Below are positions 6,380 to 19,821 of a stretch of DNA of 32,611 nt, piece by piece (within the stretch, counting starts at the first letter, position 1; each line of letters starts with the position of its first letter). The stretch is from Bacillota bacterium (lineage in GTDB: Bacteria; Bacillota; Dethiobacteria; Dethiobacterales; Dethiobacteraceae). Where the stretch lies: positions 1 to 32,611 of the forward strand of contig JAAYLG010000063.1 of the NCBI GenBank assembly GCA_012522075.1, read 5' to 3'. A program made the translations under genes and the position numbers. Below the pieces are notes generated by a model. The model saw only the letters and a list, made by a program, of their open reading frames with translations. It was not told where the DNA came from and did no database searches.

Positions 6380-8674
6380 TTACTGCAGACGCGCATAGTA
6401 GATGATAATAAACAGGAGCAGGCCCAGCATCAGTGCCACCAGCAGAGCATCAAAATTCAGGTTTTTAATATTCCAGTCGGAAGGATGCCCGCGCAGGCGA
6501 TCCCGGAGGCGGCGGGAAGGTTCGCCTGCCTGTTCGTAAGCACTGTCCAGCGCTTCATCCAAGTCAGCCGTTTTGTGCACAAGCTCTTTGGCTGCAGCGC
6601 CTGATTTTTCATATGCCCCGTTGAGGGCACTGTCCAGCTGCTCCGTCCGGTCCGCCAAACGGCGGGCAAGACTGCCCGACCTCTCATAGGCCTGGTTGAG
6701 AGCGCCGTCAAACTGTCCTGTACGCTCCGCAACGGTCCGGACTGCTCCCCCGCCGCGCTTATACGCCTCATTAACGGAAGCGTCAAATAGAGTCACCAGC
6801 CGGCACGCCCCGCGCGCCAGCCGGCAGGACTGCAGGTAAGTGTTGTTGATAAAGCTGTCAAACCTGGCGCTTGCCGTGCACACTGTCTGCAGCAGGAAGC
6901 GTACCGCCGGCAGGTAAAAAAGATACTCCACGGAAAGCCATCTGGGCGGTTTTTCCGCGAAGAAATTAAAACGGTCCAGTGCCAGGTATAAAACTGCGGC
7001 AAGGGCGAGAACCACGAGGATGCCCTGTACATCGTGCCGGTTCCAGACATTAATTTCCTGCAAATGCTCCAGCGCGTGGTGGTTATACGCAAACCCCCGC
7101 GCGGCGGGAATAACCGCCAACTTAAGCAGGAAGTGGGGAAAGAGGCCAATGGCAAGGATCACTGCACCGAAGGCGCCAAGTACGGCATATACCGGCCACG
7201 GGTAGCGGTAGCTTTTTGCCGCAAACCTGTCGGGCACCTTCCCTAGAAAAAGACCGCGGAAAAGCTTGGTAAAATAGCATAGTGTCATGGCACTGGTGAC
7301 AGTGAAAATTTTTTCGGCAAAAAACAGCGGCATGCTGTGGCTGTGCTCCGCCGCTTCCACAATGGCATGGTGCAGCAGCGTCTTGCTGATATAGCCGTTA
7401 AAGCCGGGAATACCGCCGATGCCGGCAAAGCCGATCAGAAAAACTATTGCCACAAAAGGCACTTTTTGCAGCATGCCCCTGACCACGGTAATGTCAAGTT
7501 CATGCGTTACCATATTTATTGTGCCGACCATGAGGAAAAATCCGGCTTTGAAGAAAGCATGGTTAATGATGTGATAGAGGGCGCCGGCAAACCCCATGGC
7601 ACCCTCCGTCCCCAGGTATGCCGCCACGCCAATCCCCATCAGGATATAGCCCATCTGCGAAACAGAACTGTAGGCCAGGATTTTTTTGGCCGCCGTGGAC
7701 AGCAGCGCCATCAGGGCACCGAGAAACATGGTTATAATACCAATCCAAATAATCACATAACCGACCTGCATGGAGGGCAGCATTTCCAGGGCGGCATGCA
7801 CGGCGGACGCGTCACCGTGATCAACACCTGTCGCTTGGGGAGTAAAAATCATCCCCACGACCCGGAAAATCCCGTACGCCCCTGTGTTAATCATCAGCGC
7901 GGAAAGCAGTGCACTGGCCGGTGACGGTGCCACGGGATGGGCTTTAGGCAGCCAGATATGCAGCGGAATCATGCCGGCTTTCACGCCAAAGCCGACCATA
8001 AAAAGCAGCATGACCACGTACGGGTTGAGGGAAGATACGGCAATCAGGTCATAAAGCGGCTTGATTTCCAGTGTACCAATACTGCCGTAAAGCAGGAAAA
8101 TTCCCATGAGCAGGCACAACCCGCCTGCCACGCCCAGGTAAAGCATGACCGCCCCGGCATGCATGGCGTCCTTTGTCTCATCATGGATTACCAGTACGTA
8201 AGACAGCAGTGTCATTAATTCAAAAAAGAGAAAAAGGCTGAACAAATCACCTGCCAGTACGACGCCCAGGCAGCTGGCGAGGGTTGCCAGGAGGAAGACA
8301 AAAAAGCGGGTTTGGGCATCTTCATGGGCCATATAGGCAGTGGCATGCAGCGTGGCCAAAAACCAGATGAGAGAAATGAGGGCGGCAAAAACAAAACTGA
8401 AAAAATCTACCCGAAAAAAAATACCAAACTGCAGTACCCCGGCGATTTCCCACGTTGCCGGACCGCGTAAGACCAGAGGATACATGAATAGCACCGCAGC
8501 CAGCGTGAGCAGTGTTGTGACAACGACACAGGCATTCCGCAGCCTATCTGAGCGCAGGCCAAGAAGGAAGGCAGCCACAGAACCTGCCAGGGGTATAGCG
8601 ACTGCAGCCGCCGGCAAGATGGAGGTGATTATTTCGGCTGTGGCATTCACTTCCGGGACAGCCGCGATCATCAT
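6380..8674 (-). CDS. Antiporter-like membrane subunit (NuoL/M/MrpD family) with five 25-residue C-terminal repeats
   Basis: A 764-residue proton-conducting membrane subunit homologous to MrpA/MrpD and NuoL/M. Residues about 15-530 form the usual 14-helix core, with the helix-5 glutamate E152 (FFELMTLLSYV), the helix-7 lysine K232 (GFGVKAGMIPLHIWLPKAH) and the broken-helix lysine K431 (GFNGYISK). After one more membrane helix (about 549-566) come five contiguous 25-residue repeats (605-729; consensus FD.A-N.AYE-SG...R.-A.RT.Q) and a final membrane helix (about 743-759). The core plus helix, long amphipathic stretch and last helix recall NuoL. It is the last gene of the antiporter operon, starting 4 bases after its neighbour; AGGAGG lies 11 bases before the first ATG, and a second ATG follows immediately. 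Confidence 0.88.
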   Translation of the reverse strand: MMIAAVPEVNATAEIITSILPAAAVAIPLAGSVAAFLLGLRSDRLRNACVVVTTLLTLAAVLFMYPLVLRGPATWEIAGVLQFGIFFRVDFFSFVFAALISLIWFLATLHATAYMAHEDAQTRFFVFLLATLASCLGVVLAGDLFSLFLFFELMTLLSYVLVIHDETKDAMHAGAVMLYLGVAGGLCLLMGIFLLYGSIGTLEIKPLYDLIAVSSLNPYVVMLLFMVGFGVKAGMIPLHIWLPKAHPVAPSPASALLSALMINTGAYGIFRVVGMIFTPQATGVDHGDASAVHAALEMLPSMQVGYVIIWIGIITMFLGALMALLSTAAKKILAYSSVSQMGYILMGIGVAAYLGTEGAMGFAGALYHIINHAFFKAGFFLMVGTINMVTHELDITVVRGMLQKVPFVAIVFLIGFAGIGGIPGFNGYISKTLLHHAIVEAAEHSHSMPLFFAEKIFTVTSAMTLCYFTKLFRGLFLGKVPDRFAAKSYRYPWPVYAVLGAFGAVILAIGLFPHFLLKLAVIPAARGFAYNHHALEHLQEINVWNRHDVQGILVVLALAAVLYLALDRFNFFAEKPPRWLSVEYLFYLPAVRFLLQTVCTASARFDSFINNTYLQSCRLARGACRLVTLFDASVNEAYKRGGGAVRTVAERTGQFDGALNQAYERSGSLARRLADRTEQLDSALNGAYEKSGAAAKELVHKTADLDEALDSAYEQAGEPSRRLRDRLRGHPSDWNIKNLNFDALLVALMLGLLLFIIIYYARLQ
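6488..6862 (-). repeat. Five coding tandem repeats of 75 bases (25 residues each)
   Basis: Residues 605-729 divide exactly into five units of 25, beginning FDSFINNTY, FDASVNEAY, FDGALNQAY, LDSALNGAY and LDEALDSAY. Positions 1 (F/L), 2 (D), 5 (hydrophobic), 6 (N/D) and 9 (Y) are conserved, followed by S/G-rich and basic residues. Units 2-4 are most alike and units 1 and 5 are diverged, suggesting growth from the middle. The units are strongly helical and amphipathic by inspection. Confidence 0.92.
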
Positions 8675-8678
8675 GCCG

Positions 8679-10163
8679 TCAGAAGCCTCCTCTTATTAAA
8701 AATTTGGCGGTCATTTGCGACAGATCGAAAGGCACATTCCAGGGCAAAATGCCGAACAGGAACGTAGTCAGGGCAAGCAATGCCACAGGAACCAGCATTT
8801 TAGGCGGTGCTTCATTAATGCGAGCCGGACCGTGACCTTCTTCTTCCGCCCGGCCGAAAAAGACGCTGATAATAATGGGCAGATAATAGAGGCCGTTTAA
8901 TAGACTGGAGATAAGCAGCACCACCACGTAATAAGGCTTGCCGGCGTCAAGGGCGCCAAGGGACAGGGCCCATTTGCTCAAAAACCCGCTTAAAGGCGGA
9001 ATGCCCATCATCGAAATAGCAGCCAGGGAAAAAGCAAACAAGGTAAAGGGCATCTGCCTGCCCACACCGGAGAGAGCTTTGATTTTCCGCTTACCGGTTT
9101 TCAGGATAATGGCGCCGGCAGCAAGAAAGAGCGTACTTTTCATAAAGGCGTGACTGAAAATATGGAAAACATCCCCCAGGAGTGCCTTTTCGTTTATAAC
9201 AGTCATTCCCAGGAGAATATAGCCCATCTGACCGATACTGGAATAGGCGAGGCGCCTTTTCAGGTCTTCCTGAGTAAGAGCTACGGCCGACCCCAGCAAA
9301 ATAGTGATTATTGCCAGCGCGGCCAAAAGTGTTGTCCAGCCTGCCTCCAGGAGCATTTTGCCGCCGAAGACGTGGAAGACAACCCGCAGGAGGCCATAGG
9401 CCCCGGTTTTCAACATAACCCCGGACAGGAGGGCACTGGCCGGAGACGGTGCTACCGGATGGGCATCCGGCAGCCAGACATGCAGCGGGAACATACCCGC
9501 TTTCATGCCAAAGCCGATCAGGTAGGCAATAAAAGCAAGCAAAGCCAGCGGGGAAGGCTCCCTGATCAAAAGCGGACCATTTAAAGAGACGGAACCGCCC
9601 AGTTCAAAAGTTATAACAATACCAAAAAAGAGGGCTAGACCACCGATAATGGTCATAATCAGGTATTTATAACCTGCACGCAGTGCTTCCATTGTTTCTT
9701 CATGCACGACCAGAACATAGGAAATGAGGGACATCAGTTCAAAGAAAATAAAAAGGGTAAAGAAATCGCCGGCCAGAAAAATCCCGATACAGCCGGCCAG
9801 AGTTGCAATGAGGACGGGATAATAACGGTTGCAACCATGTTCATGCCGCATATATTCCAGGGAATAGACGGTGACAAGCAGCCAGACAAAGGAAGCCAGC
9901 AAAGCCAGGGAAAAGCTTAAAATGTCCACCCGGAAAGAGACGGACAAGTTGGGCAGCAGGGAAAAAAGCTGCAGTTGAATGATTTCTCCCCCGGCAATAA
10001 ACGGGTACAGGGCGGCAACAGAAAGGAAACTAACGGCGGCGGCCGCCACGGACAGCACATTGCGCAGCTTCTCCGAGTACTGCTGAACCGCCAGGATGAC
10101 AAAAGTCATTACCAGGGGAAAGGCCACAATCCAGACCGGCAGAAAGTCTGTTACTCTATCCAC
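8679..10163 (-). CDS. Antiporter-like membrane subunit (MrpD/NuoM family), second copy
   Basis: A 494-residue, 14-helix proton- or Na+-translocating subunit related to MrpD, NuoM and NuoN. Key charged residues are present: E142 (FFELMSLISYVLV), K221 (GFGMKAGMFPLHVWLPDAH) and the broken-helix lysine in GFLSKWALS. Motifs such as HPVAPSPASALLSGVMLKTGAYG match the following 764-residue protein more closely than the preceding MrpD, suggesting these two are a separate lineage or pair. The start is GTG at 10163, 10 bases after GAGGAG. It sits 60 bases after mrpD and 4 bases before the last antiporter gene, so is clearly operonic. Its exact subunit name within Mrp or Mbs nomenclature is uncertain. 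Confidence 0.88.
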   Translation of the reverse strand: MDRVTDFLPVWIVAFPLVMTFVILAVQQYSEKLRNVLSVAAAAVSFLSVAALYPFIAGGEIIQLQLFSLLPNLSVSFRVDILSFSLALLASFVWLLVTVYSLEYMRHEHGCNRYYPVLIATLAGCIGIFLAGDFFTLFIFFELMSLISYVLVVHEETMEALRAGYKYLIMTIIGGLALFFGIVITFELGGSVSLNGPLLIREPSPLALLAFIAYLIGFGMKAGMFPLHVWLPDAHPVAPSPASALLSGVMLKTGAYGLLRVVFHVFGGKMLLEAGWTTLLAALAIITILLGSAVALTQEDLKRRLAYSSIGQMGYILLGMTVINEKALLGDVFHIFSHAFMKSTLFLAAGAIILKTGKRKIKALSGVGRQMPFTLFAFSLAAISMMGIPPLSGFLSKWALSLGALDAGKPYYVVVLLISSLLNGLYYLPIIISVFFGRAEEEGHGPARINEAPPKMLVPVALLALTTFLFGILPWNVPFDLSQMTAKFLIRGGF

Positions 10164-10223
10164 TGTTGTTCATCTCCTCAACAATTGAATATGGTTTAGT
10201 CCGTCAGTCTGTTTTTCTTTTTG

Positions 10224-11714
10224 TTATTGCCATACGCCAAGCAAACGGTGCACGGCAAGCACCACAATACCGGCCATGCGGCCGGGGAAAAAACCAAAGA
10301 CTATCACGGCGGCAGCCAGCACCACGATGGCTGCCGTCATGGGGGTGGGCAGGGCACGCGGTGCAGCTGCATTTCCTGAAGGTTTCCGGAAAAAGGCGTT
10401 AATAAGAATAGGCAGGAAATAGATACCGTTCAGCAGGCTGCTGACAAGGACAATCGCTGTAAAAAAGGGGCGGCCTGCATCCAGTGCACCCAAGGCCAGA
10501 TACCACTTGGACACAAAACCGTTTGTCAGCGGTATGCCTACCATGGACAGGGCACCAATGGCAAAGGCAACGCCCGCTGCTGGCATAGTCTGCCCAATCC
10601 CCGAGAGATCCCTGATTTTGCGTGTCCCGGTGGCATAAATGAAAGCGCCCGCCGCCAGAAAGAGCAGGGCTTTCATGACGGCATGGTTAAAAATATGCAG
10701 GATGCCGCCTGTCAGGGCATTTTCACTCCCCAGAGCCACTCCCAGAAAAACGTAACCGATCTGGGCAACACTGGAGTAAGCCAGCATCCTTTTTAAATCT
10801 TCCTGCACCATGGCAAATATGGAGCCAAGCAAAATGGCAAGCGTGGAAAGCCACAGTATAATCTCAGCCACAGGCGTCCGGGCCAGGAAAGCGGCCGGGT
10901 AAACCTGGAAAAGGAGTCTGATCATGGCCACGGCATAGATTTTAATCACCAGGCCGGATAGGACGGCGGACGACGGTGACGGCGCCGCCGCATGGGCGTC
11001 GGGCAGCCAGACATGGAGCGGGAACAAGGCCGCCTTGATGCCAAGGCCAACCACAAGCAGCGCCAGGGATGCCAACAGGTTATACGGATACAACTCCGCA
11101 GCCTGCAACATGGCTTGTGCCAGATAAGTCATATTCAGGTGCCCGGTCACCATATAAAGCAGGGCAATGGCCAGCAGGATGCAACCCGAACCCAGGGCAG
11201 ACAGCAACAGGTATTTAAAAGCCGCCTCGATACAGGCACGGTCTTCTTTAATGGAGATAAGGCCGCAGGAAGCAATGGCCGAAATCTCAATAAAAACAAA
11301 AAGGTTAAAAATATCATTTGTCATGGCCATGCCGTACAGGGAAGCAAGCAGCGTCAGAAAAAGGGTATAATACCAGCCCCGCACATCTTCCCGCAACTCA
11401 TGCCGCAGGTCGTCTATACTGTAAACCAGTACAACAAACCCGACCAGGGAAAGCGTCAGAACGGTGAACACTGCCAGGCGGTCCACGACAAACTCGATGC
11501 CGACAGGCGGCGGCCAGTTGCCGAAATGGTAAATGATAAGGCCCGTGTGCATAACCTGAAAAAGCAGGGAGAGCGAGCCGGCACTACACAATAAAAGGGC
11601 AAAAAGGGCTGCCGGCACAACCAAGTGTTTTAACCGGCGGGCAAAAAGGGGCAAAAGGTAGGCGGCAACCAGCGGGATTGCCACCAGCAGGGCGGGAGCG
11701 TGCTTTACAATCAC
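10224..11714 (-). CDS. mrpD: Na+/H+ antiporter subunit MrpD (MbhH-like)
   Basis: A 496-residue membrane subunit of the Mrp-type antiporter, the core ion-translocating protein homologous to NuoN/NuoM. The helix-5 glutamate E143 (FVFIEISAIASCGL), helix-7 lysine K227 (GLGIKAALFPLHVWLPDAH), the AAPSPSSAVLSGLVIKIYA stretch and the GFVSKWYLALG broken helix are all present. The GTG start at 11714 overlaps the mrpC stop (GTGA), giving translational coupling. Its place straight after B and C matches MrpBCD and MbhF-G-H order, which is why I give this copy the mrpD name rather than its two downstream relatives. Confidence 0.92.
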   Translation of the reverse strand: MIVKHAPALLVAIPLVAAYLLPLFARRLKHLVVPAALFALLLCSAGSLSLLFQVMHTGLIIYHFGNWPPPVGIEFVVDRLAVFTVLTLSLVGFVVLVYSIDDLRHELREDVRGWYYTLFLTLLASLYGMAMTNDIFNLFVFIEISAIASCGLISIKEDRACIEAAFKYLLLSALGSGCILLAIALLYMVTGHLNMTYLAQAMLQAAELYPYNLLASLALLVVGLGIKAALFPLHVWLPDAHAAAPSPSSAVLSGLVIKIYAVAMIRLLFQVYPAAFLARTPVAEIILWLSTLAILLGSIFAMVQEDLKRMLAYSSVAQIGYVFLGVALGSENALTGGILHIFNHAVMKALLFLAAGAFIYATGTRKIRDLSGIGQTMPAAGVAFAIGALSMVGIPLTNGFVSKWYLALGALDAGRPFFTAIVLVSSLLNGIYFLPILINAFFRKPSGNAAAPRALPTPMTAAIVVLAAAVIVFGFFPGRMAGIVVLAVHRLLGVWQ

Positions 11715-12097
11715 TGCTCCTCACCTCTCCGGATGCGCATGATCTCTTCCGCATCAACAGTCCCGTAATGTTGATACAGTTTAATTATCAGGCTTAGAGC
11801 ATAGGCGGTGACACTGACGGCAACCACGATTCCCGTCAGAATCAGGGCGGAGGGCAGCGGGTTAATAAAGGCCCGCTCTTCCCCCGGCACAAGCACGGGC
11901 GCACGACCGCCTCGCACATACCCGGTGGCAACAAAAAAGAGAAAAACCGCCGTATCCATAATATTCATGCCGATAATTTTTTTGATGAGGTTGCTGTGCG
12001 TCAACATGGTATGAAAACCGATAATAAAAAGGATAATGGCGAAAAAATAGAAGCTGTTCTGGTGCAGGCGGTAAAGCATTTCAGTCAGCGGCACCAT
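11711..12097 (-). CDS. mrpC: Na+/H+ antiporter subunit MrpC (NuoK-like)
   Basis: A 128-residue, three-helix membrane subunit homologous to NuoK and MbhG. Family features include the helix-2 segment NLIKKIIGMNIMDTAVFLFF and the conserved helix-3 opening PLPSALILTGIVVAVSVTAYALSL. I take ATG 12097 as the start because AAGGAGG lies 5 bases upstream; the TTG at 12118 would add seven residues without a comparable site. The start lies within the last codons of mrpB (17-base overlap), and the stop overlaps the mrpD start. It forms the conserved B-C-D part of the antiporter. Confidence 0.93.
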   Translation of the reverse strand: MVPLTEMLYRLHQNSFYFFAIILFIIGFHTMLTHSNLIKKIIGMNIMDTAVFLFFVATGYVRGGRAPVLVPGEERAFINPLPSALILTGIVVAVSVTAYALSLIIKLYQHYGTVDAEEIMRIRRGEEQ

Positions 12098-12527
12098 TTT
12101 GCCCTCCTTCCCGGGCAATCAGGCGATAAAAGAACGTAATGACGGTACTTGCCACTTTCATGCCTACGCCAAGCGTTATCACCGGAATGGCACCGGAGGA
12201 AAACAAATTGCCCGGCGTGCCCAAAGGATAGCCCGCGGCCTTGTTGGCCAGAAAATTGGCTCCCAGAAGCAAAGAGAAAAGGCCAATCCCGGCATACAGG
12301 AGCGTTCCTCCGCTCTCCAGGATTGTGGAAGCATCAGGTGAAAAATTTTTTTCCCCCTCGGGCAGGTTAAAGGACAGGGCGTAGAGAACCATGCCGGCGC
12401 CAAGAATTGCCCCGCCGGAAAATCCCCCGCCCGGCGAAAGATGCCCGTGTAAAATCACATACAACCCGTAAAGCTGTACAAATGGCAAGAAAATCCGGCT
12501 GATATAACGGACGATTAAATTATCCAT
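12081..12527 (-). CDS. mrpB: Na+/H+ antiporter subunit MrpB (MbhF-like)
   Basis: A 148-residue membrane subunit with four predicted helices. The MnhB/MrpB domain is recognised from YVILHGHLSPGGGFSGGAILG, which contains the glycine-rich loop between helices 1 and 2. The C-terminal helix GAIPVITLGVGMKVASTVITFFYRLI is also characteristic. In Mbh-type complexes this subunit lies in the sodium-translocating half. The ATG at 12527 has a weak ribosome site (GGCGGGTAGGG). It follows the MbhE-like gene by 21 bases and overlaps mrpC. Confidence 0.92.
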   Translation of the reverse strand: MDNLIVRYISRIFLPFVQLYGLYVILHGHLSPGGGFSGGAILGAGMVLYALSFNLPEGEKNFSPDASTILESGGTLLYAGIGLFSLLLGANFLANKAAGYPLGTPGNLFSSGAIPVITLGVGMKVASTVITFFYRLIAREGGQNGAAD

Positions 12528-12548
12528 TTCCCTACCCGCCTCCCGCTG

Positions 12549-12818
12549 TCAGTGCGCTTTCAAGTTGGCCAGAGCCGCCGCCAGAGCAACAAATAAAACA
12601 GTAGCTTCACCCAGTGTGTCAAGGGCCCGGTAATCGGTAATAATACCCGCCACCACATTCAGCACGCCCGTCTCCCGCATGCTTGCCGCCAAATAACGTG
12701 CCGGCACTTCATTATTAGTCACATTGGCGGGATCGCCCATGGGCGGCATTTCCACAACAACCGCCGTCATGAAGGCCAGGATCACGGCCAGCAAGACTAC
12801 AGTCAACACTTTGCGCAT
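12549..12818 (-). CDS. MbhE-like small membrane subunit (MrpA C-terminal piece)
   Basis: An 89-residue protein with two membrane helices, one N-terminal and one near the C-terminus. It corresponds to the hydrogenase-Mrp subunit MbhE, which in classical Mrp antiporters is fused near the C-terminal end of MrpA. The helix-leading motif YRALDTLGEATVLFVALAA is diagnostic (family pattern RxxDTLGEaTVLF). The periplasmic-side segment between the helices is short and polar. Its ATG abuts the previous stop (TAGATG), with AAGGAGG about 10 bases upstream. Its existence as a free gene is the Mbh arrangement, not the Bacillus MrpA arrangement. Confidence 0.88.
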   Translation of the reverse strand: MRKVLTVVLLAVILAFMTAVVVEMPPMGDPANVTNNEVPARYLAASMRETGVLNVVAGIITDYRALDTLGEATVLFVALAAALANLKAH

Positions 12819-13058
12819 CTACTCCTGCCTCCTTGTCTTGGCCACGGCAGCCACCAAAAGCAGTGTGGTTACTCCCGCCCCGACGGCCGCTTCCGTAACA
12901 GCCACATCAGGCGCAGCCAAAAGCTGCCACAGGATGGCCATAATCAGGCTATAGGCGGCAAAAATAATTACTGCCGCCAGCAAATCTCTGGTGCGGGCCA
13001 CGGCAATGGCGCAGACCACCAGGAAAATAAGCAGCAAATAGGCCATGGCGCTAGTCAT
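12819..13058 (-). CDS. MbhD-like subunit (DUF4040 domain, MrpA C-terminal piece)
   Basis: A 79-residue membrane protein of three helices that is essentially the DUF4040/MbhD domain, related to NuoJ. Its signature is LLAAPDVAVTEAAVGAGVTTLLLV; the acidic residue in DVAVTEAA is conserved across MrpA C-termini. The ATG at 13058 overlaps the mrpG stop by 8 bases and is preceded by GGGGAGG. Together with the next gene it supplies what a full-length MrpA C-terminus would supply. The N-terminal, NuoL-like part of MrpA is absent here and may be provided by one of the three large antiporter-like subunits. Confidence 0.9.
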   Translation of the reverse strand: MTSAMAYLLLIFLVVCAIAVARTRDLLAAVIIFAAYSLIMAILWQLLAAPDVAVTEAAVGAGVTTLLLVAAVAKTRRQE

Positions 13059-13383
13059 GTGCCCGCACCTCCCCGCGCCTGTCTAGGACTAAAGTTCCGG
13101 GCGCTGTTTTGTCTTTTTGCAGGTAGGCGGCACGGGCAATAACATGGGCTGCCGTCGGGTTGGCAATCCAGATCAGGACAATTAAAAGCAGCAGTTTGAC
13201 GGCTGCGGAGGGAAAACCCGCATACAGAGCCAGTGCCAAAAGCAAGAGACCTGCCCCCAGGGTGTCGCATTTTGTGGTGGCATGCATCCGGCAGAAAACA
13301 TCCGGCAGGCGCAATAGTCCTGCCACGCCCACCAGGAAAAAAAATATCCCGCCGGCAAGCAAAAGAATAATCACAACAGTCAT
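13051..13383 (-). CDS. mrpG: Na+/H+ antiporter subunit MrpG (MbhC-like)
   Basis: A 110-residue membrane protein with three helices, of the PhaG/MnhG/YufB family. The loop motif LLRLPDVFCRMHATTKCDTLGAG matches the family pattern of a Pro-Asp followed by RxHAxTKxDTLG. It has a hydrophilic, charged C-terminal tail of about 25 residues. AAGGAGG lies 6 bases before the ATG at 13383. It lies 11 bases after mrpF and overlaps the MbhD-like gene. Confidence 0.92.
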   Translation of the reverse strand: MTVVIILLLAGGIFFFLVGVAGLLRLPDVFCRMHATTKCDTLGAGLLLLALALYAGFPSAAVKLLLLIVLIWIANPTAAHVIARAAYLQKDKTAPGTLVLDRRGEVRAHD

Positions 13384-13394
13384 AACCGGCCTCC

Positions 13395-13679
13395 TTAGTC
13401 CAGGGCGCCTTTTTCCAGGTATTTGGCTATGCCAACAGTGGCAATAAAACTGATCAGTGCATAAACAAGAGCCACATCAAGAAAGAACTCCTGATGGAAG
13501 ACAAGTGAAACCAGGGCAATAATCACCACAGTTTTGGTGCCGATCACATTAATGGCCACCACACGGTCTGCTTCCGAGGGACCCGCCACCGTCCGCCAGA
13601 GGCAGAAAAAAGTGGCAACAACAAGCAAAATACCGGCTCCGGTCAGCACATTTTCCAGTAGTGTCATGTCAGGAAGCAT
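13395..13679 (-). CDS. mrpF: Na+/H+ antiporter subunit MrpF (MbhB-like)
   Basis: A 94-residue, three-helix subunit of the MnhF/MrpF family. The conserved loop AGPSEADRVVAINVIGTKTVVIIAL (read as GPxxxDRVxAxxxxGTK) is present. I choose ATG 13679 because GGAGGAG lies 7 bases upstream; the upstream in-frame ATG at 13700 would overlap that site. The start lies inside the last codons of mrpE (11-base overlap). Confidence 0.92.
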   Translation of the reverse strand: MLPDMTLLENVLTGAGILLVVATFFCLWRTVAGPSEADRVVAINVIGTKTVVIIALVSLVFHQEFFLDVALVYALISFIATVGIAKYLEKGALD

Positions 13680-14178
13680 TTTCCGTCTCCTCCAGGGCAT
13701 GCAAATGTTTCGCCAGTTCCCAGGTAGCTACCTCGTCCGCCCCGGTTTGCGTCAAGGCATGAACCACATAAAGATCGTCCTTTATTTCCACTGTCAGAGT
13801 GCCGGGAGTCAGGGTAATGGAGTTCCCCAGGATCACACGGTAGAGCGGTTTACAGAGATCTGTGCGAAACTTAACAAAACAAGGGGAAATGTCCAGGCGT
13901 CGTGAGAGAACAATCTTGGCCACCTCCCAGTTTGCCTGGAAAACGGCTATGATGAGCCGTAAAAGATAGACACCGAACCCCCAGGCAGTCCGCAAGGTAA
14001 AAAGGGGCCTTTCTTTTTTACTTAAAAACAGTTCCCTGTTAAAGGCGGCCACCGCCAGGGAACAAAGGGCGCCGACCACTAGATGCTGCCAGTGCAGACG
14101 CCAGGTAAGAAGCAGCCAAAAAAGAAACAAAGCGGCCGCCGTACCCCAAAAAACTGTGCCGGAAGGTGTTCTTTTCAC
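13669..14178 (-). CDS. mrpE: Na+/H+ antiporter subunit MrpE (MbhA-like)
   Basis: First gene of the antiporter operon; a membrane subunit of about 169 residues with two or three N-terminal helices and a cytoplasmic C-terminal domain. The family signatures LTWRLHWQHLVVGAL and, in the cytoplasmic domain, GNSITLTPGTLTVEI and LYVVHAL are clear. The frame is open back to a GTG at 14229, but GGGGAGGAG lies 7 bases before the GTG at 14178 (4 before the GTG at 14181), so I start there. The upstream 199 bases to rnfB hold a promoter and a structured leader. Confidence 0.9.
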   Translation of the reverse strand: MKRTPSGTVFWGTAAALFLFWLLLTWRLHWQHLVVGALCSLAVAAFNRELFLSKKERPLFTLRTAWGFGVYLLRLIIAVFQANWEVAKIVLSRRLDISPCFVKFRTDLCKPLYRVILGNSITLTPGTLTVEIKDDLYVVHALTQTGADEVATWELAKHLHALEETENAS

Positions 14179-14224
14179 CACTTTTCTCCTCCCCGCCGGA
14201 AAAAACCTGATTTGCTCATTTTTT

Positions 14225-14273
14225 CCCACAGCACCGACTCACCGGGAAACAAGTTAAAGCACCCTCAGCGCCG
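14225..14273 (-). promoter_or_regulatory. Structured leader of the antiporter operon, possible ion-sensing riboswitch
   Basis: Between the mapped-by-eye promoter and mrpE the transcript has a compact G/C-rich core with several competing pairings. GCGC (14268-14271) can pair with GUGC (14259-14262); GGG (14262-14264) can pair with CCC (14244-14246); and that CCC can alternatively pair with GGG (14225-14227). The intervening text GGUGAGUCGGUGCUGU looks like conserved RNA rather than spacer. Position before a Na+/H+ antiporter operon makes a Na+- or Li+-type riboswitch a reasonable guess, but I cannot confirm a consensus from memory. Confidence 0.4.
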
Positions 14274-14428: not shown

Positions 14429-15211
14429 CTAAACAATAGTTTTCTGCGGGCAAACTTCCACGCAAGTTCCGCAATTTGTGCAAATATTGCTGTCGATAAC
14501 AGCCACATTGTTTTCCATGTGGATGGCATTGACGGGACAGTTTTTCACGCATAATGTGCAGGCAATACAGCCGCGGCTGCAGACCGCCCGTACCTGTTTG
14601 CCTCTTTCCTGTGATTTGCAGCGGACATGGTGCACACCCCTGGCATTCACCAGGTCAATAACCTGCCTGGGGCATTCCTTTTTACAGAGACCGCAGCCGA
14701 TACAAAGATCGACGTCAATTATTGGCAGTCCGTTTTCCCCCATGACAATGGCGTCCACCGGGCAGACACGTGCACAATTGCCAAACCCGACACAGCCGTA
14801 GCTGCAGGCTGACGGGCCGCCGCCGAACATCAGGGCGGCATTGCAGTCGGGCACGCCGTCATACACGGCCTTGGCCCGGGCTGTATTGCAGTCTCCCACA
14901 CATTTTAACTGCGCCACCAGGCGGTCTCCCGCCTCCGGCGCTTCCGTTCCCAGGACTTCGGCAATCTTGGCCACTGCTTGCGCGCCGGCGGGAGTACAAC
15001 CGTTAACGGGAGCACGTCCGTCCACCACTGCTTCTGCAAACTGGGCACAACCGGCGTAGCCGCAGGCGCCGCAGTTCGCCCCTGCCAACAATTCCTGAAC
15101 CGCCTCTATTCTTGGATCAACCTCAACGGCAAACTTCTGGGAAGCAAAGGCCAACAGGCCGCCGAATACCAATCCCAAGGCCGCCAGGCTTACAACTGCC
15201 GGAAAAATCAT
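14429..15211 (-). CDS. rnfB: Rnf complex subunit RnfB (polyferredoxin)
   Basis: The ferredoxin-facing electron-entry subunit of Rnf, 260 residues. An N-terminal membrane anchor (about residues 3-25) is followed by the Fe-S domain with ANCGACGYAGC plus a further Cys, then a cysteine-rich ferredoxin region with CxxCxxCxxxCP-type motifs (CIGCGLCKKECP, CIACTLCVKNCP, CTNCGTCVEVCP and CSYGCVGFGNCARVCP). These suggest several [4Fe-4S] clusters. Two start codons lie close together; ATG 15211 is 9 bases after AGGAGG, while ATG 15217 is only 3 bases from it, so I prefer 15211. It is the last gene of the rnfCDGEAB order seen in acetogenic Clostridia. Confidence 0.96.
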   Translation of the reverse strand: MIFPAVVSLAALGLVFGGLLAFASQKFAVEVDPRIEAVQELLAGANCGACGYAGCAQFAEAVVDGRAPVNGCTPAGAQAVAKIAEVLGTEAPEAGDRLVAQLKCVGDCNTARAKAVYDGVPDCNAALMFGGGPSACSYGCVGFGNCARVCPVDAIVMGENGLPIIDVDLCIGCGLCKKECPRQVIDLVNARGVHHVRCKSQERGKQVRAVCSRGCIACTLCVKNCPVNAIHMENNVAVIDSNICTNCGTCVEVCPQKTIV

Positions 15212-15224
15212 GATCATACGCCTC

Positions 15225-15800
15225 CTACATCATACCTTGGAATCCCATAAAAGCAATGGAAAGGATTCCTGCCAAAATCAGGGCAAGGGAGACACCGCGG
15301 AAGGGTTTGGGGATATAAACCAGCTCCAGTCGTTCACGTATACCCGCCATAATTACTAGAGCCAGAGTAAAGCCAATGGCGGCGGCAACACCGAATACCA
15401 CGGCTTCCAGCAGGTTATATTCCAGCTGGATATTCAGCAGGGCCACACCAAGCACGGCGCAGTTGGTTGTAATGAGGGGCAGGAAAATACCGAGCGCCTG
15501 GTAGAGAACCGGGCTGACTTTCCGGATAACCAGTTCCACAAACTGCACCAAGGCCGCAATGACCAGGATAAAAACTATTGTCCGCAGGTATTGCAATTCA
15601 AAAGGCACCAGGAGGTAATATTCCAAAAGCCATGTGACCAGGGAAGCCAGCCCCATGACAAAAGTTACCGCCATCCCCATACCAACGGCTGTATCCACTT
15701 TTTTAGAGACACCGAGGAAGGGGCAGATGCCAAGGAAACGTGTAAGCACAAAATTGTTGATAAAAACGGCGCCAAAGAAAATTGCCACTAAATTCGCCAT
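15225..15800 (-). CDS. rnfA: Rnf complex subunit RnfA
   Basis: A six-helix membrane subunit (191 residues) homologous to NqrE and paired in inverted topology with RnfE. The opening [22 protein letters not shown] and the half-membrane segment [17 protein letters not shown] carry C26 and C114. By analogy with NqrD/NqrE, these together with two RnfE cysteines hold the intramembrane iron-sulfur centre. The ATG at 15800 follows GGGGAGGG at a good distance. It sits 13 bases after rnfE and 13 bases before the preferred rnfB start. Confidence 0.96.
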
Positions 15801-15813
15801 GATCCACCCTCCC

Positions 15814-16413
15814 CTACTCCAGTTTTAATTTTTTGAAAACATAGTTCAGCAGTGCCATCACCAAGCCGTAAGCCAGAAAACCGCCGGTTGGCATGCCGAA
15901 AACCATGAACGGTTCATAACCCGTACCCATCACGTTTTTGCCGAAAAGCGTTCCGGCCGCCACCAGCTCTCGCAGTGAACCGAGAATTGTCAGCGAGAGG
16001 GTGAAGCCGAGTCCCATGCCCAGGCCGTCCACCAGGGAAGCCGCCACATTGTTTTTATTGGCAAAAGCTTCCGCCCGCCCCAGGATAATGCAGTTCACAA
16101 CAATCAGCGGTACGAAAATGCCCAGCTGGGAGTGAAGATCCGGGGTAAAAGCATTCAACACCATATCCACAATCGTAACGAAGGTGGCAATAATAATGAT
16201 GTATGCCGGAATGCGGATTTTATCCGGTATTGCTTTGCGCAAGAGGGAAATGAACACATTGGAAGCAACCAGCACCGCCGTGGTGGACAAGCCCATCCCC
16301 AGGCCGTTGACGGCCAGTGTGGTAACCGCCAGTGTGGGGCATGTACCAAGCACGAGCCTGAAGGTTGGATTTTCTCTAACAAAACCTTTTGTAAATTCCT
16401 TCATTACACTCAT
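15814..16413 (-). CDS. rnfE: Rnf complex subunit RnfE
   Basis: A six-helix membrane subunit (199 residues) homologous to Nqr[26 protein letters not shown] and [18 protein letters not shown] contain C25 and C108, the partners of the RnfA cysteines in the intramembrane Fe-S centre. Family length is normal and no key residue is missing. The ATG at 16413 lies 11 bases after rnfG and is preceded by GGGGGTG. Confidence 0.96.
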
Positions 16414-16424
16414 TTTCGCACCCC

Positions 16425-17522
16425 CTACTGCGTCAGCGCATTGCGCACAGCCTGCATAATGCCCTGACTGCTGAAAGTGGCACCGCAGGCGGCGTCAACC
16501 TGCACTGACTGTTCTTCAATAATGCGCTTGGGGACTTCCGCTTTTGCCTTGTTAAAATATTCGGGCGTGTCGTCCCCGTTTGTCACCTCGATATCGGTAA
16601 TCCTGCCGCCGGCTACCGTGACCTTCACTTTAATGCCGGGCTTTAAGCCTTCACCTTCGCCCTCATACACGCCGTCAGGCAGGGCGGAAATATCAAGGCC
16701 GGGGCCGGCCGCGGCTTTTTGCAGCGCATCCTGTACGGCATTCATGATGCCCTGGCTGCTGAAAGTGGCGCCGCTGGCGGCGTCAACCTGTACCGATTGT
16801 TCTTCAATAATCCGCTTGGGAACTTCCGCTTTCGCCTTGTCAAAGTATTCCGGCGTGTCATCCCCGTTTGTCACCTCAATGGCGGTGATTCTACCGCCGG
16901 CTATTGTTACTTTCACTTTAATGCCGGGCTTTAAGCCTTCACCTTCGCCCTCATACACGCCGTCAGGCAGGGTAGAAATGTCAATGTCTGGGGGTACTTC
17001 CGCCAAATCGCCGCCAAAGGCGGTCAGGATGGCTTCCATTTCTTTTTTCACACCGTTTTCCATTGCCAGGCTGGTAATGGTGGCACCGGAAATATTGTCC
17101 ACATCAAAGGAATCGGAAAGTGTTTTGCCTAAGAATTGCCTGCGGTAGGATTCCTCATTAATTTTGGCACCTAAGCCTGCCGTCTCACTGTGAGAAACGA
17201 TGGTCAGACTGACCAGTTTCCCTTCGCCGTCAATTCCCAGGTTAAAACGGATGTCTCCGCCGTAACCGCTTGTTTTTCCTTCCGCCAAAATACCCACCAG
17301 GTTGCCGTCCGCATCGTAACCAATGGTGGCCGTTCTGCCGTCGGCTTCTTTGTCTTCAAAATTTTCCATCGTGGGAAAGAGCTCCTGCATGAGTGCAACC
17401 TTTTCTTCATACAGGCGCTTTTCAATAATTTTAGATGTTACCTGATTGGTATATGCCAGGGCGCCTCCCGCTACCGCACAGATAAACATCAAAATCAGAC
17501 CAACACGTATAATTTCTTTCAT
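16425..17522 (-). CDS. rnfG: Rnf complex subunit RnfG with two extra FMN-binding domains
   Basis: The membrane-anchored flavoprotein of Rnf, expected to carry covalent FMN outside the membrane and pass electrons between RnfD and the rest of the complex. Residues about 1-25 are the membrane anchor. Residues 40-170 form the usual RnfG domain with SETAGLGAK and the ApbE flavinylation motif D142-N-I-S-G-A-T148. The protein is 365 residues, far longer than the usual roughly 200, because two further FMN_bind-like units follow: 181-276 (D247-A-A-S-G-A-T253) and 277-365 (D343-A-A-C-G-A-T349). The extra units resemble the extracellular FMN domains of PplA-type proteins. ATG 17522 lies 2 bases after the rnfD stop. 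Confidence 0.95.
   Translation of the reverse strand: MKEIIRVGLILMFICAVAGGALAYTNQVTSKIIEKRLYEEKVALMQELFPTMENFEDKEADGRTATIGYDADGNLVGILAEGKTSGYGGDIRFNLGIDGEGKLVSLTIVSHSETAGLGAKINEESYRRQFLGKTLSDSFDVDNISGATITSLAMENGVKKEMEAILTAFGGDLAEVPPDIDISTLPDGVYEGEGEGLKPGIKVKVTIAGGRITAIEVTNGDDTPEYFDKAKAEVPKRIIEEQSVQVDAASGATFSSQGIMNAVQDALQKAAAGPGLDISALPDGVYEGEGEGLKPGIKVKVTVAGGRITDIEVTNGDDTPEYFNKAKAEVPKRIIEEQSVQVDAACGATFSSQGIMQAVRNALTQ
16428..16982 (-). repeat. Two near-identical 288-base coding repeats (extra FMN domains of RnfG)
   Basis: Residues 181-276 and 277-365 align with a fixed 96-residue offset and differ at only a handful of positions. At DNA level the two copies share long identical blocks, including one of more than 50 bases covering the LPDGVYEGEGEGLKPGIKVK codons (about 16629-16680 and 16917-16968). 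The copy number could change by recombination. Confidence 0.93.
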
Positions 17523-17524
17523 GG

Positions 17525-18436
17525 TTATTTTGCCACCTCCCCGTACTTTCTGGGCAGGGTCAAGTTATCAATGAGGGGTACCAGGGCATTCATCAGCAGG
17601 ATGGCAAAAGTAACGCCTTCAGGATAAGCGCCGTACAAACGGACCAGCATGGTCATTACGCCGCAACCCAGGCCAAAAATAAGCTGACCGCGGGGAGTGA
17701 CTGGCGACGTAACCATATCCGTAGCCATAAAGAATGCACCCAGCATCACACCGCCGGCCAGCAGATGGAAAAGTCCTGTGGCAAGTGAAAAACCGCCGTC
17801 CAGCAGGCTGCCCATAACAAAGACTGCAGCCAGGAAAGTGCAGGGGATGTGCCAGGAGATATGGCCTTTATAGAAAAGCCATGCAGCCCCAAGGAGCAGT
17901 GCCAGCGCGCTGGTTTCACCCAAGGAACCTGGGACGGCGCCCACAAACAGGTTGAAGAATCCGGGATGTGCAGAGCCGGCCAGGGGTGTGGCCGTTGCAG
18001 TCAGTTCCACCGGGGTTAACCAGCTTGTCATATGGCCCGCCCAGGAAATAAGTAGGATTCCCCGTCCCACCAAAGCCGGATTGAAAATATTGTTGCCGAT
18101 ACCGCCAAAGACATGTTTGCCTATGGTGATGGCAACCACACTGCCGATGACACATAGCCACCAGGGCGGACTGGGCGGCAGGGTCAGGGCCAGTATGAGA
18201 CCGGTTACGGCCGCACTGCCGTCACCGAAAATATTCTTATTACGGAGAATAATGGCTTCAGTCAGCATGGCGGACAGGGTGCAGACAAGTATGGTAATCA
18301 GTGCCGGGATGCCGAAAAAAATAACGGCGGCCAGCACAGCCGGAAACAAAGCTACCAGGACGTCGCTCATCACACTTTTGATGCTCTCGGGTGATTTTAT
18401 GTGTGGTGAGGACGAGACAATCAGTTTGTTTTCCAT
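17525..18436 (-). CDS. rnfD: Rnf complex subunit RnfD
   Basis: A 303-residue membrane subunit with about nine or ten helices, homologous to NqrB; in Rnf it carries a covalently bound FMN and is thought to take part in ion translocation. The family stretches GGIGNNIFNPALVGRGILLISW, MATDMVTSPVTPRGQ and YGAYPEGVTFAILLMNALVPLID are present. The flavin-accepting threonine is expected in the segment E144-L-T-A-T-A-T150-P-L, where the usual SGAT is replaced by ATAT; T150 is the likely acceptor. AAGGAGG lies 9 bases before ATG 18436. It stands 34 bases after rnfC and 2 bases before rnfG. Confidence 0.95.
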   Translation of the reverse strand: MENKLIVSSSPHIKSPESIKSVMSDVLVALFPAVLAAVIFFGIPALITILVCTLSAMLTEAIILRNKNIFGDGSAAVTGLILALTLPPSPPWWLCVIGSVVAITIGKHVFGGIGNNIFNPALVGRGILLISWAGHMTSWLTPVELTATATPLAGSAHPGFFNLFVGAVPGSLGETSALALLLGAAWLFYKGHISWHIPCTFLAAVFVMGSLLDGGFSLATGLFHLLAGGVMLGAFFMATDMVTSPVTPRGQLIFGLGCGVMTMLVRLYGAYPEGVTFAILLMNALVPLIDNLTLPRKYGEVAK

Positions 18437-18470: not shown

Positions 18471-19796
18471 TCATTTCGCCGCCTTCTTGGCGGCAATTTC
18501 GCCCTTGGCCATGCGGATCCATTGTGTCAGCGGCCGTTTGGCCGGGCAGATGTAAGAGCAGCAGCCGCACTCAATACAGTCCATGGCGTTGTAATGTTCC
18601 GCCTTGTCATAAAGCCCCTGCTCCACGGAACTGCCAATAAAAAGGGGCATAATACTGACGGGGCAAACCTCGACACATTTGCCGCATCTGATACAGGGGC
18701 GAATTTCGTCTATTGTTACCTCTTTGTCTGTAAGGCAGAGAACGCCTGATGTCCCTTTGGTCACAGGCAGGTTGTCTACTCCGGGCTGGGCAAGGCCCAT
18801 CATGGGACCGCCGATGATCACTTTGCGCAGGTTGGCGGTAAAACCCCCGCATTGCTCCACCACTTCGGCAACGGGAGTACCTACCCGCACCAGCAAGTTC
18901 CGCGGTTCCTTAATGCCGGAACCGGTAACTGTGACAATTCGCTCGATCAGGGGCAGGCCTTTGCGCACTGCATCGGCAATGGCGATGCACGTACCCGCAT
19001 TCTGCACCAAACAGCCCACCGCTGCCGGCAGGCCGCCGGAGGGGACTTCTCTGCCAGTGAGGACTTTAATCAGTTGTTTTTCCGCACCTTGCGGGTATTT
19101 TGTGTGCAGGGCTGCAACTTCAATGTTTTCTTCTCCTGCGACCGCTTTTTTCATGGTTTCAATGGCATCGGGCTTGTTGTCTTCAATGGCAATGAAACCC
19201 CTCGGTGCGGCCACAATTTTCATTGCCAGCTTCAGACCACACACAATATCTTCCGGGCGTTCTAGCATGGCCCGGTGATCGGCAGTAAGGTACGGCTCAC
19301 ATTCCGCCCCGTTTACCAGCACATAGTCAATCTTCTGGTCTGCCGGCGGAGAAAGTTTAACGTGGGTTGGAAATGTTGCCCCGCCCATGCCGACAATTCC
19401 GGCTTCACGAATAATTTTTTTCAGTTCATCGGGAGTCATTTTCTCCCAGTCCGGGTTTGGCTGTACCGATTCATGCCAGGCATCCTGATAGTCGTTCTCA
19501 ATAAAAACCGCGTCCACAGGACGCCCCAGAGCCGAATTGCACTGTGCAATTTTCACCACTTTCCCGGAAACACTGGCGTGGACCGGTGCCGAGACAAAAC
19601 CTTTGCTGTCACCGATTTTCTGGCCCATTTTTACTTCGTCACCGACGGCTACCAGCGGTTCGCATGGTGCACCGATATGCTGTGACAGGGGAATTATTGC
19701 CACAGCCGGGGGGGTGGCGGGAGCAATAGGTTTTTGCTCTGTTGCGCCTTTATGGTACCCGGGATGGACGCCCCCCTTGAAAGTCTTTAGGCTCAT
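18471..19796 (-). CDS. rnfC: Rnf complex subunit RnfC (NADH/FMN and Fe-S subunit)
   Basis: The peripheral NAD+-reducing subunit, 441 residues. It opens with the FKGGVHPGYHK motif, has a flavin/NAD-binding fold with GIVGMGGATFPTHVKLSP (residues 133-150) and VNGAECEPYLTADHRAML (161-178). It ends in a ferredoxin domain with two cluster motifs: C368-C371-C374-C378 and C407-C410-C413-C417. I use ATG 19796, 9 bases after AAGGGGTG; the GTG at 19808 is also possible and would add four residues. It is the first gene of rnfCDGEAB, following a 234-base upstream gap that contains AT-rich promoter candidates. Confidence 0.96.
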   Translation of the reverse strand: MSLKTFKGGVHPGYHKGATEQKPIAPATPPAVAIIPLSQHIGAPCEPLVAVGDEVKMGQKIGDSKGFVSAPVHASVSGKVVKIAQCNSALGRPVDAVFIENDYQDAWHESVQPNPDWEKMTPDELKKIIREAGIVGMGGATFPTHVKLSPPADQKIDYVLVNGAECEPYLTADHRAMLERPEDIVCGLKLAMKIVAAPRGFIAIEDNKPDAIETMKKAVAGEENIEVAALHTKYPQGAEKQLIKVLTGREVPSGGLPAAVGCLVQNAGTCIAIADAVRKGLPLIERIVTVTGSGIKEPRNLLVRVGTPVAEVVEQCGGFTANLRKVIIGGPMMGLAQPGVDNLPVTKGTSGVLCLTDKEVTIDEIRPCIRCGKCVEVCPVSIMPLFIGSSVEQGLYDKAEHYNAMDCIECGCCSYICPAKRPLTQWIRMAKGEIAAKKAAK

Positions 19797-19821
19797 CGCT
19801 GGATTCACCCCTTTTAAAACA

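Follow-up and report, generated by a model that had tools for sequence, protein, structure and literature searches.

In the Rnf and NQR complexes, the flavin of RnfG or NqrC is known to shuttle between the cluster of RnfA/E (NqrD/E) and RnfD/NqrB (PMC12174285). Beyond this core function, RNF gene clusters encoding multi-flavinylated RnfGs were described by Meheust et al. (2021), and a second pathway leading to extracytosolic acceptors was proposed for them (PMC8238504). Covalent FMN at the equivalent threonine was found by Tong et al. (2023) in the crystals of both CbFMN4 and SaFMN3, and when multi-FMN proteins of this type are produced recombinantly, each of their domains bears FMN (PMC10339131). 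Here, an rnfG gene with two additional FMN_bind units is compared with these systems. The stretch of DNA analysed, termed the window, comprises 32,611 nucleotides and corresponds to contig C148 in the draft genome G000 (2.07 Mb, 93% complete).

The rnfG gene and its three FMN_bind domains

The gene is part of a complete rnfCDGEAB operon, in which rnfC, rnfD, rnfE, rnfA and rnfB all lie in order on one strand. It is preceded by folC and followed by Mrp-type antiporter genes, an order that is largely conserved in relatives, for the Mrp part only partly; the antiporter genes constitute genomic context and lie outside the flavin arm discussed below. The features are as follows:

18471 to 19808, minus strand: rnfC (RnfC_N, Complex1_51K and SLBB domains)
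17525 to 18436, minus strand: rnfD (NQR2_RnfD_RnfE match)
16425 to 17522, minus strand: rnfG, 365 residues, RnfG domain plus two C-terminal FMN_bind units (open reading frame with Pfam and NCBIfam matches)
16983 to 17522, minus strand: membrane anchor and standard RnfG domain, residues 1 to 180, predicted FMN site T148 (TIGR01947; RnfG chains 9eri_G and 7zc6_G)
16695 to 16982, minus strand: FMN_bind unit 1, residues 181 to 276, predicted FMN site T253 (DAASGAT)
16428 to 16694, minus strand: FMN_bind unit 2, residues 277 to 365, predicted FMN site T349 (DAACGAT)
15814 to 16413, minus strand: rnfE (Rnf-Nqr match and operon order)
15225 to 15800, minus strand: rnfA (Rnf-Nqr match and operon order)
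14429 to 15217, minus strand: rnfB (FeS domain, PF04060, and 4Fe-4S domains)
6380 to 14229, minus strand: Mrp-type Na+/H+ antiporter genes after rnfB (MNHE and PhaG_MnhG matches for two genes, the others named by sequence and order)

Judged from its sequence, the product of the open reading frame at 16425 to 17522 is a genuine RnfG, as residues 8 to 163 match TIGR01947 with 114.4 bits against a cut-off of 102. Pfam assigns three FMN_bind (PF04205) stretches to the protein (E 4.2e-50 for the whole), each of which exceeds the curated cut-off of 22 bits on its own in the genome search (63.9, 60.4 and 56.7 bits). The two extra FMN-binding domains proposed in the first-pass annotation are thus recovered, and the positions given there, 16428 to 16982 on the minus strand, coincide exactly with residues 181 to 365. 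The length of 96 residues ascribed to each unit holds for unit 1, linker included, while unit 2 has 89. The proposed pattern D-x-x-[SC]-G-A-T is present in both, as DAASGAT around T253 and DAACGAT around T349, and the standard domain carries DNISGAT around T148. The motif D-x-x-[S/T]-G-A-[S/T] fits at T148 and T253, while at T349 a Cys occupies the S/T slot; among 36 aligned units, unit 2 of the window is the sole one with Cys at this place (position 64). Units 1 and 2 are identical at 79 of 89 residues and 228 of 267 nucleotides, and their codon differences are mostly synonymous (23 versus 10 non-synonymous), which argues for a tandem duplication kept under selection and against chance resemblance.

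By sequence, the first domain matches the RnfG chains of solved Rnf complexes (9eri_G, 7zc6_G), and the extra units match domain 1 of CbFMN4 (8p2b) and domain 2 of SaFMN3 (8p2a); for unit 2, the alignment to the CbFMN4 domain, which was crystallised with its covalent FMN, is free of gaps. Moreover, a profile of the units scores 64 to 87 bits on the small stand-alone FMN_bind proteins that are intact in relatives (109 to 164 residues), on which a profile of the RnfG domain reaches at most 39 bits. This supports the earlier remark that the units do not look like second RnfG domains; they resemble extracytosolic stand-alone FMN_bind proteins. A full-length AlphaFold model built from four sequences (mean pLDDT 44) was used for strand-helix order only; a single-unit model (pLDDT 59) places 8p2b and 8p2a first in a fold search, though weakly (E about 0.01), so that the sequence match to CbFMN4 and SaFMN3 carries the weight.

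Other proteins and loci were encountered in these searches. Three stand-alone proteins of another sort (L044, L094, L109) resemble the RnfG domain, and RnfG-like proteins of other Bacillota (L061, L064, L066, L068, L071) carry a second or third domain that is itself RnfG-like and not of the small FMN_bind type. A second Rnf, suspected in the same genome from an FMN_bind match on contig C156, was dismissed, since the cluster is NQR-like and carries an nqrF-type ORF pair. This short contig (L043, G000:C156, 2578 to 6629) holds RnfD/NqrB-, NqrC-, D- and E-like genes, with the nqrF halves in two overlapping ORFs, and could either encode a further ion-pumping complex or have been binned in error. 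In the relative G017, pieces matching rnfA and rnfB upstream of rnfC and rnfA downstream of rnfE (L079, G017:C163, 2 to 408) suggest that rnf has been rearranged or is present twice.

Occurrence, selection and turnover of the units

A match was obtained in 59 of the 60 relatives searched, and about 43 of the 56 genomes of the class with RnfG carry at least one C-terminal unit, as judged by coverage of the best matches. Two such units are present in seven genomes (G000, G002, G016, G017, G033, G044, G042), while some relatives, e.g. G005, G013 and G014, have no extra unit on RnfG. Across the phylum, 398 genomes were sampled and 30 long RnfG frames were fetched; because these were picked by length, they give no estimate of prevalence. 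C-terminal units were found in 21 of the 30, which brings the total per protein to between two and five FMN_bind domains; these 21 represent nine families, of which eight lie outside the class of the window. The search for multi-FMN RnfGs in relatives, advised by the first-pass annotation, hence succeeded both within the class and in no fewer than eight families beyond it, and the impression of an unusual architecture has to be given up: it is the majority form in the class, and it was published in 2021 with the same interpretation.

Relative to the congener G002, dN/dS amounts to 0.137 for the RnfG domain, 0.134 for unit 1 and 0.128 for unit 2. These nearly equal values imply that the units are as constrained as the core RnfG domain. 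The number of FMN_bind domains nevertheless varies within genera, with three in G000 and G002 and two in G001, and three in G016 and two in G010. In addition, the units cluster by genus and not by position, which points to recurrent tandem duplication, loss or gene conversion; dS between the two units of G002 is 0.20, lower than the 0.44 obtained when the first unit is compared between G000 and G002. Repeat collapse in the draft genomes is possible but unlikely as the cause of differing unit numbers, at about 85% DNA identity. That evolution uses the number of units to set the length of an outward Rnf electron branch, whose reach to partners at differing envelope depths is tuned by tandem duplication and loss, appears rather unlikely. 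Congeners one unit apart (G000 and G001; G016 and G010) offer natural material on the effect of an added flavin.

Predicted flavinylation, possible electron paths and partners

To assess pocket conservation, 36 C-terminal units from the RnfG of the window and from related RnfGs were aligned to CbFMN4-D1. The FMN-linking Thr/Ser, Asp61 and Ser/Thr69 are kept in 36/36 units each, Thr37 in 35/36, and Gly65 and Ala66 in 34/36 each. Two flavin-facing CbFMN4 residues differ in the units of the window, the stacking Tyr11 being replaced by Leu and Leu40 by Tyr, so that an aromatic residue may face the flavin from the opposite side, if the alignment is not off by one. The genome was also to be checked for ApbE, and it does encode one, a lipobox-bearing, extracytosolic lipoprotein (contig C120, 228 bits). 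Flavinylation of all three RnfG domains is likely, given the apbE gene and the conserved motif and pocket residues. According to a review of the motif D-x-x-[S/T]-G-A-[S/T], several changes reduce flavinylation without abolishing it; Cys at the fourth place is outside the variants covered (PMC12052999), and FMN occupancy at T349 is accordingly predicted to be the least certain of the three, below T148 and T253. Adjoining apbE lies a gene for a lipoprotein with two similar repeats, which has neither a flavinylation motif nor an NCBIfam match (L045, G000:C120, 6387 to 7508).

From these features, it is rather probable that the extra units form a flexible outer flavin arm, which would give Rnf a side branch to extracytosolic partners; the flow of electrons, its direction and the partner are inferred. 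ApbE would join FMN to T148, T253 and T349 outside the membrane, and the T148 domain would perform the usual work of RnfG, mediating electron transfer between the iron-sulphur cluster of RnfA/E and RnfD. The extra units, held on short linkers, would swap electrons with the T148 flavin and exchange them with extracytosolic partners such as small FMN_bind proteins, other redox proteins or soluble acceptors, thereby letting electrons leave or enter Rnf at its outer face. The proposal of the first-pass annotation, that additional flavins lead electrons away from Rnf, hence stays plausible. Since some relatives possess RnfG without units, the arm would be dispensable for Rnf itself. If it works, Rnf in many anaerobic Bacillota would, beyond coupling ferredoxin and NAD to ion pumping, also trade electrons on the far side of the membrane with no need for cytochromes.

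The occurrence of the units together with ApbE, their conserved pocket, the selection acting on them, the intact rnfCDEAB genes, the FMN_bind gene ahead of rnfC in three relatives and the likeness to CbFMN4 and SaFMN3 count for the flavin arm, while the lack of a partner in the genome, the unit-less relatives and the off-motif unit 2 count against it. An electron buffer, in which the extra flavins are filled and emptied by the T148 flavin, serve only to hold electrons in reserve or to even out the one- and two-electron steps of Rnf, and release none from the complex, would suit the failure of searches in the window genome to find an external partner, and a store would tolerate a unit number that varies freely among close relatives; yet the likeness of the units to stand-alone carrier proteins speaks against it, as does the FMN_bind protein gene next to rnfC in three relatives, and a buffer is unlikely. 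A docking or structural role, with units that steer the movement of RnfG or bind a protein or the cell wall and with a secondary flavin, could account for the replaced Tyr11 and Leu40 and for the non-standard motif of unit 2, but no aligned unit has lost the FMN-linking Thr/Ser or the Asp, a conservation above expectation for a purely structural role, and such a function seems quite improbable. Least credible, and very improbable, is a neutral, functionless repeat expansion: frequent copy-number change and the absence of units from some relatives would fit it, but purifying selection equals that on the RnfG domain, and the units are widespread within the class and beyond.

With respect to possible partners of the flavin arm, the FMN_bind protein genes mentioned above lie between folC and rnfC in G004, G025 and G022 (L104, L105, L106) and have a lipoprotein-like start, which suggests a natural next carrier, as a path out of Rnf would need. 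The operon of the window lacks such a gene ahead of rnfC. Family searches of the genome found no NapH-like Fer4_5 protein, and a pattern search confined to CXXCH pairs 20 to 50 bases apart yielded no convincing multi-haem cytochrome; two matches were dismissed, one being antisense to apbE and the other lying in the wrong frame of an ORF for a membrane protein. In these searches, the suggested check for external acceptor pathways turned up no acceptor. An Omp85 match was likewise absent from the family search, giving no sign of an outer membrane. The genome encodes two Cytochrom_C_asm proteins, in a gene set that, named from sequence only, reads like cytochrome c assembly; FAD_binding_2 matches were also returned.

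The unlinked stand-alone FMN_bind gene of the window genome is a remnant of 60 codons (L092, G000:C167, 2918 to 3097). The stand-alone membrane-anchored FMN_bind gene compared in its congeners (L090, L091) is an intact frame of 141 residues in G002 and has 89 residues in G001. That loss of this gene is offset by a gain of RnfG units is unsupported, as G001 has only one extra unit and a shortened stand-alone frame as well. In G003, of the same family, several FMN_bind matches lie in long frames of 566 to 832 residues, possibly large flavoprotein reductases (contigs C77, C125, C155, C321, C27).

Comparison with known flavoproteins

The characterised RnfGs, i.e. the Acetobacterium-type 9eri_G and 7zc6_G of Clostridium tetanomorphum, share with the RnfG of the window the N-terminal membrane helix, the FMN domain and the operon, but have one FMN domain each instead of three. 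CbFMN4 and SaFMN3 share tandem, near-identical FMN_bind units on short linkers, with 31/78 identities to CbFMN4-D1; these secreted proteins differ in lacking an attached RnfG domain and in their stacking residues (positions 11 and 40 in Cb numbering). PplA, a flavoprotein of extracellular electron transfer in Listeria-type systems, has the extracytosolic location and FMN_bind domains in common, but a classification as PplA was rejected, given a weak match of residues 239 to 318 to NF041941 (30.2 bits against a cut-off of 325). From the multi-haem subset of Meheust et al. (PMC8238504), the fetched multi-domain RnfGs differ in that CXXCH is absent. With the multi-flavinylated RnfGs of the same study, on the other hand, several FMN_bind domains within an RNF cluster and the proposed second path are shared, and no defining difference was found. 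The RnfG of the window is hence a further case of this known type, from a Bacillota draft genome, and its interpretation as an arm has already been published; what is added here is the frequency within the class, the labile number of units, purifying selection of equal strength on all three domains, the FMN_bind gene next to rnfC in three relatives and the Cys variant of the motif.
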